A stretch of 64,000 nucleotides of DNA from Watersipora subatra. Taxonomy: Eukaryota; Bryozoa; Gymnolaemata; Cheilostomatida; Watersiporidae. The stretch is from assembly GCF_963576615.1 (NCBI RefSeq), contig NC_088709.1, positions 15,327,264 to 15,391,263 of the forward strand. The letters are read 5' to 3'. The position numbers were made by a program, and so were the translations under genes. The first letter of the stretch is position 1; each line of letters opens with the position of its first letter. Positions 11,301-59,300 of this stretch are shown piece by piece. Below the pieces are notes generated by a model. The model was given only the letters and a program-made list of their open reading frames with translations, did not search any database and was not told the DNA's origin.

Positions 11301-14300
11301 TATATGATAGGAGTCCAAAGCTGATGGTTCTGATGAAGAGAATGAAGAGGCCGAGGCTGCAGAACAAAGGCCATTGTTAGCGGGGCCTGCGCCTGCTGAT
11401 AGCCGCTCTCCTAGTCGAGGAGAACGAACTCCGTCCATTATGGCTGGAACATTCTTAGCACTTCCCTTTCCAGAACCTTCCCTTCCGGACTCATCTTCAA
11501 GGTGAGGCTTGGTAATATCTTGCCTTAATAATATGTATAGCAGTTTTTCCATTCATGTAAAACAGTCTTTCCATGTATAAAATGTCATTGGCGGAGAGTA
11601 CATGAGCAATTTTGGTTGAATGTTTTGCCAACAGTATGGTAAACTAAACTTTTATGATTGGTCTATCGAGTTGGAAGGATTGCTGACTCTACTTTTTTCC
11701 TTTCTATCTTTCATGTCATGATTGGCCCAATTAGCCATATTGGGCTGATTAACACAGTACTGAAAAAGTTTAAGGCACTTTGACGATTTTAGCGGAAGCC
11801 GGTCTTATATTAGACCGGTCTTAATTCCTTTCATCTGTTATATTATTTGTATGATAAAACAGTGTACAATATTTGGTTGCTAAAAGCTCGTTACCTGAAC
11901 ATGGAAATACACATTTTAAAAGTTTGTTATACTGGTTTTATTATCATTGTTAGAGCATATTTATTAAAGAGCGGCTGTGGCTCAGTGGTGAGTACACCGG
12001 CCTGTGATTAGTAGGGTGGTGGTTCGAATCACATACAGCCCATCAGTGGTGTTAGGAAGAGCCTTCAACTACAGTTGCTCGTGACCTTGAACTTACCACT
12101 CAATCAGCATATGGCAGGAAGTGAATATAATAGTTAATTATAAAGGGTATGGTAGAAGTTAATTGAATAAATCTTATTCTACTACTGCTATGTGTTAGAG
12201 TGATGATGGAATCGCATAAACTTTGATGTGTACAGCTCCCTACATGAAATGATTCACCATTTCACCTCCAGTCATAAATAATGCATTTGGTTTGAGTTAG
12301 TTTTTTAAATAGTAACATTTGTTACTGTCAAAGAAATAACGTAGATAATAGTGAACAAATGGAATCACTGAAATAGTTATTGCCATGGTAGTACACAAAC
12401 TTATGATCAGTAGGTTGGTGGTTCGAATCACACAAAGACCATCAGTGGTGTTAAGAAAATCATCCAATTACAATTGCTCCTGTGCTTCAATTAACTCTCA
12501 TGTTAGCATTAGACCAAGATATGGCTGGTAACAGCAGCCATCACAATGAGTGGGGTAGTAGGAGTAAAAGCTAGTAGGAGCCAAACCTAGTTACAAGTAT
12601 GTAGTAGTATAGGTCATTATTGTGCAGATCATTTTAATAGACTACTAAATCTGATCTCTTGTATGCTGCTCCTAGTATCTGTAGGTGTCGATGTCTGTGC
12701 AACTGAATGCAGTTTGTGATGCTGGTCTGCGATAGGCTAGTGTAACTGTGTATGAAGAAGACTAAGAATCATGCGCATAGCAGGGGGTGTGCATGGTGCC
12801 CAATAGTTTTTTCCAGGAACAAAGCACTTATCCAATATATCATTGCTACTCTTCATACGTGATTGCCTGCCTCTCTTATGTCGGAGTTGCTGTTATTTTT
12901 GTCATGTTGCTGTGAGTAGAAAGTAAAATAAATATGTCATGTTATGGAATCTCTTTAGAAGCGCTCTCGAGGCTGGAGAGAGGAAACAAGTGGGGTCTCA
13001 GCTGCCACCAACCGGTAATGAAGTGAGTTTAACATTTTGCTAATTTTAGTGATAATATTGCACCTATCACAGATGATATTATTTATATCTTTGTCTGAAA
13101 TTCTATAACCTTTATCTGTTAGTCACACGCTGTTTAAATTACCCAAATGGACATGAGATTTTATATTACATCTAGTGACACATATCTGTAAAACATTGTT
13201 CATGCTGCACTCTTGGTGTAAAAGGGTTTGCTGGGCTGTAAGGAGTGACAACTCTTCATCACCAGTTGTCACTCCTTACATTCACCTTAGTTAGTCCCCT
13301 GCAAATTCAGCCTTCCGTAATGATGTCTGGTATTGAAGTGAACTCTTATGCTCAGAAGATTGAATTGTTTATATTGTTTCAGATTGAGACTGGCCATAGT
13401 ATAAACTATTTTCCTGATATCCAGAATCCACATATTGGAGAAAATCGATTGGCTCGTGAAAATCGTGCTTCCTTAGTACACGCCGTTCCTATTTATGATC
13501 AAAAGGTAGAAAGATTTGCTGTTGTTCTTTTAAGTAATAGAAATCTTTCGCACTCGGCTTTACCAGATATGGCAACTACCTATTCAAACTAAGATCAGTA
13601 TTGTTACACATGTAAACTCAAACCTCAACTCATATCGCAAGTTTGGATCTTTTAGTAATGTAATATTTGCTTCTTGAGGAAAGTTCTTTTCTAAGGTTCA
13701 CTGGTCTCAATCCTATAACCCTTACTCTCATTAAATCGACCTGTTAAACTTACTTTCATTAAACCGACCTGTTAAACTTACTCTCATTAGCCTTGATCTT
13801 GTTAAACTTACCCTCATTGGTTTTGAGCTTGTTAAACTTACTCTCATTGGCTTGAATCTTGTTATATTACTCTTGTTGGCCTGAATCTTGTTAAACTTAC
13901 TCTCATTGGCTTGAATCTTGTTATATTACTCTTGTTGGCCTGAAACGTGTTAAACTTACTCTCATTAGCCTTGATCTTGTTAAACTTACTCTCATTGGCC
14001 TGAATCTTGTTAAACTTACTCTCATTGGCCTGAATCTAGTTAAACTTACTCTCATTGGCTTTGATCTTGTTAAACCTTTTCTCTTTGGCCTAATCTAGTA
14101 AAAATTACTCTCGCTGGCCTTCATTTTATTAAACTTATTCTCATTGGTCTGATCTTGTTAAACTCACTCTTGTTGACCTTGATTTATGTAAATTTAAAAG
14201 TACAGTAATGCCATTTACTTGAAAGAAATTCAAGTCACTGTTGTTATTCTCTAGGCTCTTGATGGACACGCATCAACAAAAATGTATGAAACTGAGAGGG

Positions 14301-56300: not shown

Positions 56301-59300
56301 TTGAATTTTATGAAAATACTAGCTGTGCTACCCAGCGGTGCGGGTATTAAAATTAGCTTACCTTATAAACAATGAAAGGTAATGTAGTCGCCTGCCACTT
56401 GCTATAAGCCAGGCACATTGCCAATGGATAATTTAAGTAAGCTTACGAATAAGAACTACCCCTCCCCATGACGTTATACCGTCACGCTGCGTTGTAACGA
56501 AAAGCGGTCACGTATTTGCTCCCATATACTGACATATATCGCCTGGTTTACCCATCAAGATCGTTTGGCTGAATTGGTAAGGCGTTGGAATAGTGACATG
56601 AATCGTCTGAGATCAAATCTTTTGCGATACGGATTTTTTATTCCAAGATATTAATTAATAGCTATAGCTGGACAATCACAACGACAGACAAACTTTGAGA
56701 AATACATAAATAGATTTGTGGCACAAACAACTTTGTTTTCAACTTTTTTATGGCTAGACTGCCATAAAAAGCTTAAGGCTAATAACATCAGAAGCCACAC
56801 CAATCTTAGTCTTGACAAAACTACCCTCAGAACGCCTGTCTATGATAAAATTTAGAGTGAACCTACGCCAACACTGTTTTAGATATAAGTGTATATCGTA
56901 TCTTTATCACATTTTTACCAAGTAAATGTAGTATGATTTTTAGGGTTTTACATTTTTGTTTTATTTATGTATTTTTTTGTCAACATCAGTTTTTATGAGC
57001 ACACACTTTTAAATTAAAAAAATTAAAAAAATTTTAATAATTGAAATAAATATGTTAAATTACAGCGCTAGGTATGTGTGTAACTCATCAGCTCATTTGT
57101 TGAGACTGTAAACACTTTTCAGTTGATGGTGAAACATGCAAGTACAGCTTTATCAAGTTACCGGAATACTAAGGCTTCTAATGACTTCCTACTCGGTGAT
57201 TAAAGGTTGCTGTGTGACACGATATTAGCAATTTCTCTCACTTCATAATACTGCAGGAACACTTTTAATCATGTAGGAGAGTTCTCTCCGAGTATGCAAA
57301 TAGTTTTGCACCAGAACTTCAGGTAGAACTCATGGTGTTACAGAAAGGGAAAGAAGTTGCTAGAAGTTTTTCACACAACCCCCTCATTTCTCCAAATGGA
57401 GATGCTCAGGTGGCACGTGGGCGTGAGGCCTCGCTTGTCAATGCTTTTCCTGTTTATGATCAGAAGGCTGGAATGTTATGAAATAGCTTTTATAATGTTG
57501 TACTATTTTATAAAAAAATTAATTTGTGTAAATTTATTTATAGACTAGGTGAATGCCCGACAATGAACAGGTAATAGGTTAATTACCTAATGAGTTGGAG
57601 TAGCTTACCTGCAAAGCTAGATCTTTACTAAATTCTTTACTAAAACAATACTTGCATTTTGGGTCAGCTTAACAATTGTTACTAGTAGCAGTCAACTGTG
57701 CTAGTTATTAACCCAAGCAAGCGCTTCACGCGCCGGTATCTTAACCAATGTAATGACTATTTGCTCAATCAATCCATTGTAGGCTATTTCGTGTCGCTTA
57801 AGGTTAAGTTTGCCTCTTGTAGATCTGGAGGTCCTGAGATTAAACCCAGTACCATGCAGATTTTTGTTTTTTGATTTTAATTGCTTTGACTCGACACAGG
57901 GTTTAACAACACGACAGACACTGAGATTTATATGTAGATTGTTAAATATAGCTGAGTAACATGTAGTTAATAGATTGTTAAATATAGCTGAGTAACATGT
58001 AGTTAATAGATTGTTAAAGATAGCTGAGTAACATGTAGTTAATAGATTGTTAAAGATAGCTGAGTAACATGTAGTTAATAGATTGTTAAAGATAGCTGAG
58101 TAACATGTAGTTAATAGATTGTTAAATATAGCTGAGTAACATGTAGTTAATAGATTGTTAAAGATAGCTGAGTAACATGTAGTTAATAGATTGTTAAATA
58201 TAGCTGAGTAACATGTAGTTAATAGATTGTTAAATATAGCTGAGTAACATGTAGTTAATAGATTGTTAAATATAGCTGAGTAACATGTAGTTAATAGATT
58301 GTTAAAGATAGCTGAGTAACATGTAGTTAATAGGTTGTTAAATATAGCTGAGTAACATGTAGTTAATAGATTGTTAAAGATAGCTGAGTAACATGTAGTT
58401 AATAGATTGTTAAAGATAGCTGAGTAACATGTAGTTAATAGATTGTTAAATATAGCTGAGTAACATGTAGTTACTAGATTGTTAAAGATAGCTGAGTAAC
58501 ATGTAGTTAATAGATCGTTTCACATCACCATGCTTTAAAGCTCGTTCACTCTAACAGCTGTTTGGATACAAAACTGCCAGAAACTCAAGGAACTTATTGT
58601 AGCCTGAACACCGGCCTAATGAATGGAAATGTTTGTTTTGATCAAGAGAAAGAGCTTTTCAGTGCAAAATTACACATTCACTAATTTTAAAAAGTTTTTA
58701 ACATATTTTTAAACATTTTAAAACATATTTATAAATAGTTACTGATATTTTACCATTTTAATATTTCTTATTTTGTTGTTTGTCAAAATCCAGTTGATTA
58801 TGTGAACATGTACTGTTCATATAAAAGTTAATCTGACAATCCATCATTGATGTAGATGTCATGAGTACACATGAAACAGTATCTCTGTTATTAAGTTTTA
58901 TGGGTGGGTTTATAGACTGTAATATCATCTAGGCAGCTGTATGCTTTGTGACAAGAGCTACGCCTACGTATTTGTATTTGATTTAAAGGAGGAGTCTAAA
59001 TTAGTTCAAAGGACTGGGCAGTTCATAGAAACGCCTCGTATATCTTTCTCTTAGCATAACTTTTCAAATGCGTAAATGGTTTGCCACTCGCTCTTGTTTT
59101 ATTGTTCTTCAATGTGAAATTACAACAAGTTCTTTGCGCGAGTGAAATTCCCTCAAATTTCTAAGCTTCAGAAATTTTTAAAAGTTGCAAAAAAAGTTAG
59201 ACAACTCCTGTAACAGCAAATTATTTGGCGATAAAATAGTATCTCTTTGTATTAATGCTCATTTATTTTCAATAATAAAAAAGATAATAATATTATTATT

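Follow-up and report, generated by a model that had tools for sequence, protein, structure and literature searches.

Two described genes come closest to the locus reported here. In nebulin (NEB), a block of eight exons occurs three times and is subject to copy-number variation (PMC9109913). In LPA, the kringle IV type 2 unit consists of two exons in 5.5 kb, and gene conversion or duplication has been invoked for variants shared between units (PMC4378929). Here we analysed a 64,000-bp stretch of contig NC_088709.1 (15,327,264-15,391,263, hereafter the window) of the marine bryozoan Watersipora subatra, in which an ordered set of four exons, designated A, B, C and D, recurs nine times. It is likely that this is one gene that has grown by tandem duplication of the four-exon unit, with its A-B and D exons refreshed by exchange between copies and its C exons lengthening on their own. 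All results come from a single assembly, and the proteins discussed are predictions.

A four-exon cassette repeated in phase

We built the exons manually, guided by splice sites and sequence similarity, after the raw sequence had been read, a reading that took in most of the window except 25300-26850, 37400-37850 and 47700-55900. Seeds for tblastn searches in the window were copies present in it or composites of them. The resulting model is a single open frame of 41 exons without a stop, running from the ATG at 8252 to the end of D9 at 43620. Exons E1, E2 and D0 are followed by nine A-B-C-D cassettes, in the first of which D1 is divided among three D-like exons, so that the same ordered exon set repeats within one gene on one strand. 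The modelled exons are listed below with their entry and exit phases; unless stated otherwise, the peptide of each is found in the NCBI protein P0002.

E1, 8252..8344, +, first coding exon with the ATG, 0 to 0; its peptide begins P0002
E2, 8972..9097, +, 0 to 0, carries RRNSS
D0, 11311..11501, +, first D-like exon, 0 to 2, tblastn to D seed E=2e-4
A1, 12959..13022, +, 2 to 0
B1, 13383..13505, +, 0 to 0
C1, 14255..14801, +, 0 to 1, tyrosine-rich xPxY repeats
D1a, 14907..15146, +, 1 to 1, D-like by eye (RRQSY)
D1b, 15843..16163, +, 1 to 1, D-like by eye (ERRESS)
D1c, 16310..16469, +, 1 to 2, tblastn to D seed E=4e-5
A2, 16858..16915, +, 2 to 0
B2, 17107..17166, +, 0 to 0, strongly diverged
C2, 19073..19283, +, 0 to 1; the NCBI model takes an earlier donor (matched to 19213)
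D2, 22289..22400, +, 1 to 2, short form
A3, 23598..23661, +, 2 to 0
B3, 23954..24073, +, 0 to 0
C3, 24371..25142, +, 0 to 1, 54-bp in-frame tandem repeats
D3, 27094..27205, +, 1 to 2, short form, remnant of the 5' part upstream at ~26915
A4, 27583..27646, +, 2 to 0
B4, 27800..27895, +, 0 to 0
C4, 28021..28468, +, 0 to 1
D4, 29366..29543, +, 1 to 2
A5, 30593..30656, +, 2 to 0
B5, 30809..30904, +, 0 to 0
C5, 31207..31546, +, 0 to 1
D5, 31702..31879, +, 1 to 2
A6, 32707..32770, +, 2 to 0
B6, 32923..33018, +, 0 to 0
C6, 33320..33659, +, 0 to 1
D6, 33815..33992, +, 1 to 2
A7, 34105..34168, +, 2 to 0
B7, 34321..34416, +, 0 to 0
C7, 34543..35419, +, 0 to 1, longest C exon, 54-bp in-frame tandem repeats
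D7, 35536..35713, +, 1 to 2
A8, 36091..36154, +, 2 to 0
B8, 36381..36485, +, 0 to 0
C8, 38195..38483, +, 0 to 1 provided that splicing takes the GC donor (GCAAGT); the NCBI protein ends at a stop after 38488
D8, 38677..38839, +, 1 to 2, outside the NCBI protein
A9, 40117..40177, +, 2 to 0, outside the NCBI protein
B9, 41950..42072, +, 0 to 0, outside the NCBI protein
C9, 42792..43329, +, 0 to 1, outside the NCBI protein, weak acceptor (2.6 bits)
D9, 43489..43620, +, 1 to 1, outside the NCBI protein; a following 1-to-2 exon was looked for and not found

The phases recur with the exons. Phase 2 to 0 is found in 9/9 A exons (A1-A9), 0 to 0 in 9/9 B exons (B1-B9, with B2 too diverged for its identity as a B exon to be certain), 0 to 1 in 9/9 C exons (C8 only via the GC donor at 38484, and C2 by our own choice of donor, where NCBI differs) and 1 to 2 in all seven single-exon D copies (D2-D8). 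The remaining D exons depart from the rule: D0 runs 0 to 2, the three exons of D1 run 1 to 1, 1 to 1 and 1 to 2, and D9 runs 1 to 1, which implies that one exon is missing before A10. All donors between 8252 and 43620 are GT except that of C8, a GC at the place where the sister C exons have GT. The recurrence exceeds chance: in tblastn searches of the window, E values went down to about 1e-35 for other D copies and 1e-18 for other B copies. Because the phases of the unit add to zero, each gain or loss of a unit keeps the frame, as a reading of the sequence alone had proposed; the exon sums of cassettes 3-8 are multiples of 3 in 6/6 cases. A possible transmembrane exon at ~12.8 kb, spotted on reading the sequence, is absent from P0002 and was dropped.

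Protein searches covered 5.8 billion proteins in length bands of 0.55-1.75 times the query, with shared 5-residue words required; two of them, with a 1,890-residue query and a D7-D9 query, scored the 7975 and 7995 candidates with the most shared words. The 1,890-residue query gave a single match, P0002 (2375 amino acids, 'uro-adherence factor A-like [Watersipora subatra]'). Thirty-five of the 36 model exon peptides from E1 to C8 are exact in P0002, the exception being C2 with its other donor. The peptides of A4, A6 and A7 are identical, as are those of B4, B6 and B7, so that their matches do not tell position. In P0002 the GC donor is read through, and the protein ends in C8. The gene is not unannotated, since NCBI holds most of it, under a misleading name that is corrected here.

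The splice model, the tblastn matches and the P0002 peptides bear out the sequence-only reading in its claim that A, B, C and D recur in order with these phases, and the model, together with P0002 as far as C8, agrees with its view of a single gene. Both positions between which it placed the array are exon edges in the model (11311 starts D0 and 57466 ends B10). Of the roughly ten cassettes it counted, nine stand and the tenth is represented by the candidate fragments A10 and B10. A single frame as far as 57466 was not confirmed: the frame breaks between D9 and A10, and the donor of B10 is a weak GC (1.5 bits).

Its suggestion of a previously undescribed repeat architecture seems fair. No Pfam family matches P0002 at the gathering cut-off (the best is DUF7684, E 0.0063, 16.7 bits against a cut-off of 26), no PDB chain matches it at E up to 0.1, and no protein from another species appeared in the length-banded searches. 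Whole-assembly searches placed 11/11 matches to a B-C query and 8/8 matches to a D query inside the window; B1, B9 and B10 were not recovered by the B-C search, which means that such searches could overlook a diverged relative outside the window. A literature search with the name 'uro-adherence factor A-like' led to one unrelated Camelina paper and no description of this protein, and the available portion of the Flustra genome paper holds nothing on this gene (PMC13326412).

Cassette copies of different ages

Cassettes 5 and 6 are 93% identical in an alignment of 1327 bases, cassettes 4 and 7 have blocks that are 89% identical over 746 bases, and D3-A4 is 91% identical in DNA to D7-A8. The C exons group as sister pairs (4,7) and (5,6). 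We pooled silent differences across these two pairs (cassettes 4-7, leaving out cassettes 3 and 8 and the ungapped D8 columns, which a one-residue deletion puts out of register). They amount to 0.68 per site in the C core (93.7/137.3), 0.13 in A (7.0/52.7), 0.14 in B (12.0/86.7) and 0.10 in the D core (10.0/104.0). Each of the four cross pairs, taken singly, shows a difference between A+B and C, with Fisher p values (computed from rounded counts) between 7e-7 and 1.5e-5.

The A-B intron (152-153 bp) is 93-97% identical in 6/6 pairs of cassettes 4-7. In the same cassettes the 120 bp upstream of A show identities of 0.60-0.68 (shuffled mean 0.61), and over the 110 bp after B only sister pairs resemble each other (0.82 and 0.84), with cross pairs at 0.60-0.71 and shuffled sequence at 0.64. 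D core identity is 0.94-1.00 in each of the six pairs. Directly after D, a flank of 60 bp is common to D4, D5 and D7 (0.81-0.88) and lacking from D6 (0.56-0.59). D2 and D3 have in common a stretch of ~90 bp just upstream (22190-22290 and 26900-27100), which replaces or cuts off the 5' part of D, and their acceptor is coding sequence in D4-D7.

The exons behave as constrained coding sequence, as indicated by low ratios of nonsynonymous to synonymous divergence (dN/dS). When the ten pairs among cassettes 4-8 are pooled, A has a dN/dS of 0.11, B of 0.21, the first 110 codons of C of 0.37 and D of 0.42; the D core of D2-D7 has dN 0.016 and dS 0.105. Tandem Repeats Finder counted 8.5 copies of a 54-bp in-frame repeat in C3 and 9.2 in C7 (regular-expression counts were rough and unused); 54 bp is 18 codons, so these internal repeats also keep the frame. 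They and the cassette-size blocks of 89-93% identity give indirect support to the fast-changing length that the sequence-only reading had suggested.

We propose that the gene grew by repeated tandem duplication of the four-exon unit, a process that the identity of the copies points to. A-B and D have probably been renewed by exchange of short tracts that spared C, and this mosaic history is what is new here. One tract, of ~350 bp, would hold exon A, the intron and exon B and would have been refreshed between cassettes 4-7; another, of ~220-350 bp, would hold exon D with some flank and would have been refreshed between the same cassettes and also in D2 and D3. Judging from the pattern of divergence, the mechanism was most likely gene conversion or short-tract unequal exchange. 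The C exons and most other intron sequence would have retained old differences, and the C exons appear to lengthen independently via their 18-codon repeats.

Some observations tell against this history in its simplest form. The missing 3' flank of D6 means that D tracts vary in length, the dN/dS values come from few sites and non-independent pairs, and constraint on silent sites could account for part of the low silent divergence of A, B and D. If the proposal holds, the locus is a clean natural case of a protein that grows by adding complete exon sets in frame, and copies of many ages stand next to one another in it. Two exon tracts would be homogenised independently of a third, which makes the start and stop of exchange tracts measurable within a gene and allows asking whether conversion, selection or both keep site-bearing exons alike.

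Predicted product and its RRxS sites

P0002 is rich in serine (15.0%) and glutamate (9.9%), with 2 cysteines and 4 tryptophans in 2375 residues, and its composition crosses the charge-hydropathy boundary towards disorder by a narrow margin (0.418 against 0.435). Its best 19-residue hydropathy window is 0.75, which leaves no transmembrane stretch. RRxS is a consensus of the protein kinase A (PKA) type. In residues 1-708, before the modern cassettes, P0002 has 4 RRx[ST] sites against 0.54 expected (15/5000 shuffles reach this number), and in residues 1-1064 it has 7 against 0.65 expected (0/5000). In the whole protein, [RK]Rx[ST] occurs 23 times against 2.8 expected (0/1000 shuffles). [LP]PxY occurs 3 times against 0.7 expected (28/1000 shuffles), and two other motifs looked for in P0002, YxxPhi (142/1000 shuffles) and [DE]xxxL[LI] (267/1000), are not enriched. 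The tyrosine-rich repeats of C1 (14400-14700) contain xPxY as LPTY, PPVY and LPSY, possibly WW- or SH2-type motifs.

Each modern cassette may be viewed as a pair of conserved basophilic sites, one in B (RRASL) and one in D (RRRSS), with a variable C linker between them, and cassette copy number would then set the number and reach of the sites. From these features we tentatively suggest a mostly disordered protein inside the cell that would act as a scaffold or as a kinase substrate with several sites, although the odds are rather against this being its function. Less likely still is the fuller picture of a bryozoan-only disordered signalling scaffold, in which cassette number would set kinase-site number, selection and conversion would keep A-B and D alike, C would be free to diverge and lengthen, and dose and reach would vary among individuals or colonies.

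Several results count against a kinase-site role. The whole-protein count of [RK]Rx[ST] is inflated by duplication, the shuffling tests ignore local charge, and P0002 shows no excess of the looser pattern RxxS/T (32 against 27.6, with 204/1000 shuffles reaching it). RRx[ST] sites are beyond chance and conserved, except that the diverged B copies keep the serine and not both arginines (B1 NRASL, B9 HRESY, B10 REASL). RRx[ST] also fits other kinases, and the exons E43-E46 on the EF-hand side of the locus have none (0 against 0.03 expected).

Limits of the gene and competing readings

Downstream of D9, the following candidate exons were found.

Candidate A10, 45257..45386, +, open with entry in phase 2, connection from D9 broken
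Candidate B10, 57344..57466, +, weak GC donor
Candidate E43, 59590..59964, +, downstream exon of the same gene or the next one, 0 to 0
Candidate E44, 62033..62176, +, 0 to 0
Candidate E45, 62283..62460, +, 0 to 1
Candidate E46, 62922..63114, +, 1 to 2
E47, 63681..63882, +, its last 36 codons open the NCBI EF-hand protein P0001

A query from the last exons gave one match among 1803 candidates, P0001 ('uncharacterized protein [Watersipora subatra]', 354 amino acids, with EF-hands), identical over 36 residues. P0001 has eight placed exon matches at window-extended positions 63775-88922 and contains an EF-hand pair; EF-hand proteins are among the best 60 of 145 matches in its PDB sequence search. 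Its N-terminus may be truncated. Structure prediction without an alignment was unusable (mean predicted local distance difference test score, pLDDT, 35.8), and Pfam searches of the model pieces (four proteins) returned only DUF494 for E43-E46 (E 0.098), which we do not believe. Open reading frames of 403 and 181 amino acids lie at window-extended ~83573-86018, between two matched P0001 exons, and resemble a mobile or domesticated hAT-type transposase.

Between A10 and B10 lies a retroelement on the minus strand with long terminal repeats (LTRs) at 47119-47668 and 55415-55964 that are 98.7% identical over 550 bp; its open reading frame fragments resemble Ty3/gypsy. Large intronic or intergenic minisatellites are found at 25212-26853 (48 bp), 37405-37846 (18 bp) and 57935-58519 (36 bp). 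An open reading frame at 178-423 (-) reads like an exon of NUDT21/CFIm25 and is a possible synteny anchor.

The gene may end at C8, as in P0002, with D8, A9, B9, C9 and D9 being relics or parts of another transcript, which would leave eight cassettes with the last D lacking. We regard this as possible, if doubtful. Continuation past C8 requires the GC donor (5.7 bits) and a weak C9 acceptor, the frame breaks after D9, and the D7-D9 query found no protein at E<=1 in the band of ~303-964 amino acids, so that in this size range the database has no model covering the continuation. A single weak candidate for the missing 1-to-2 exon between D9 and A10 (44459-44645) is repeat-like sequence and was not accepted. 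On the other side, D8, A9, B9 and C9 each have an open frame flanked by AG and GT sites that give the expected phases, the C8 donor sits where other C exons have GT, and D8 compared with D4-D7 (dN 0.42, dS 1.19) was constrained for part of its history. Further downstream, we lean slightly towards a separate gene that runs from about E43 into P0001, with A10 and B10 as dead copies beside the large LTR element. NCBI begins P0001 inside E47, the B10 donor is weak and the frame break precedes A10; the absence of RRx[ST] from E43-E46 points faintly the same way. Yet E43-E47 are open, their phases chain on from B10 and lead into P0001, and P0001 also holds RRYSS and RRRST.

The array and its product can also be read in other ways. 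Functional constraint on introns and silent sites, through splicing control, might make A-B and D look young, and the near-identical stretch does cover both exons and the whole intron in cassettes 4-7. But such constraint would not allow the A3-B3 and A8-B8 introns to have diverged from those of cassettes 4-7 (0.47-0.53 and 0.65-0.69), which makes it improbable; exchange of short tracts holding A-B or D appears to explain the pattern better. Separate small genes or assembly copies are very improbable: near-identical copies can be assembled wrongly, but these differ in C exons, repeat numbers and introns, and P0002 joins cassettes 1-8. An adhesin is scarcely credible and was rejected. UafA-type adhesins have a C-terminal LPxTG anchor and an adhesin domain, and our impression is that the name 'uro-adherence factor A-like' is given to low-complexity predictions. 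Apart from the name, one LPPTG in exon A1 speaks for it; this motif is internal, YSIRK is absent, the N-terminus looks unlike a signal peptide by eye and in a 19-residue hydropathy scan, no 19-residue window is hydrophobic enough for a membrane anchor, and no Pfam domain was matched at the gathering cut-off. The growth of one gene by four-exon duplication and exchange has its own weak points, in that P0002, which joins the cassettes up to C8, is a database prediction, and that splicing, expression, polymorphism in length and use of the sites are predictions from one assembly. According to the W. subatra genome paper, the Ensembl annotation is based mainly on aligned transcriptomic data (PMC12902671).

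Among known systems, the likeness to staphylococcal UafA is one of name only, as P0002 showed neither a Pfam domain nor an anchor window, nor a sorting signal at its C-terminus. Multi-site PKA substrates and A-kinase scaffolds have repeated RRxS in disordered sequence. P0002 repeats RRxS in predicted disordered sequence as they do; no homology to them was found, and its phosphorylation is a prediction. The W. subatra gene resembles NEB in having a tandem multi-exon block repeated inside one giant gene, and LPA in having a multi-exon repeat unit in frame inside one gene. It differs from NEB in that the block has four exons and is present about nine times, its copies vary widely in age and its product is probably disordered. 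Pfam and PDB sequence searches of P0002 found no sequence relation to either gene. Whereas LPA encodes folded kringle domains, the W. subatra gene is an orphan sequence whose copies differ in age exon by exon, as a mosaic. By analogy with NEB and LPA, the locus appears to work like other in-frame multi-exon arrays, in a protein for which the search on its database name gave no description.

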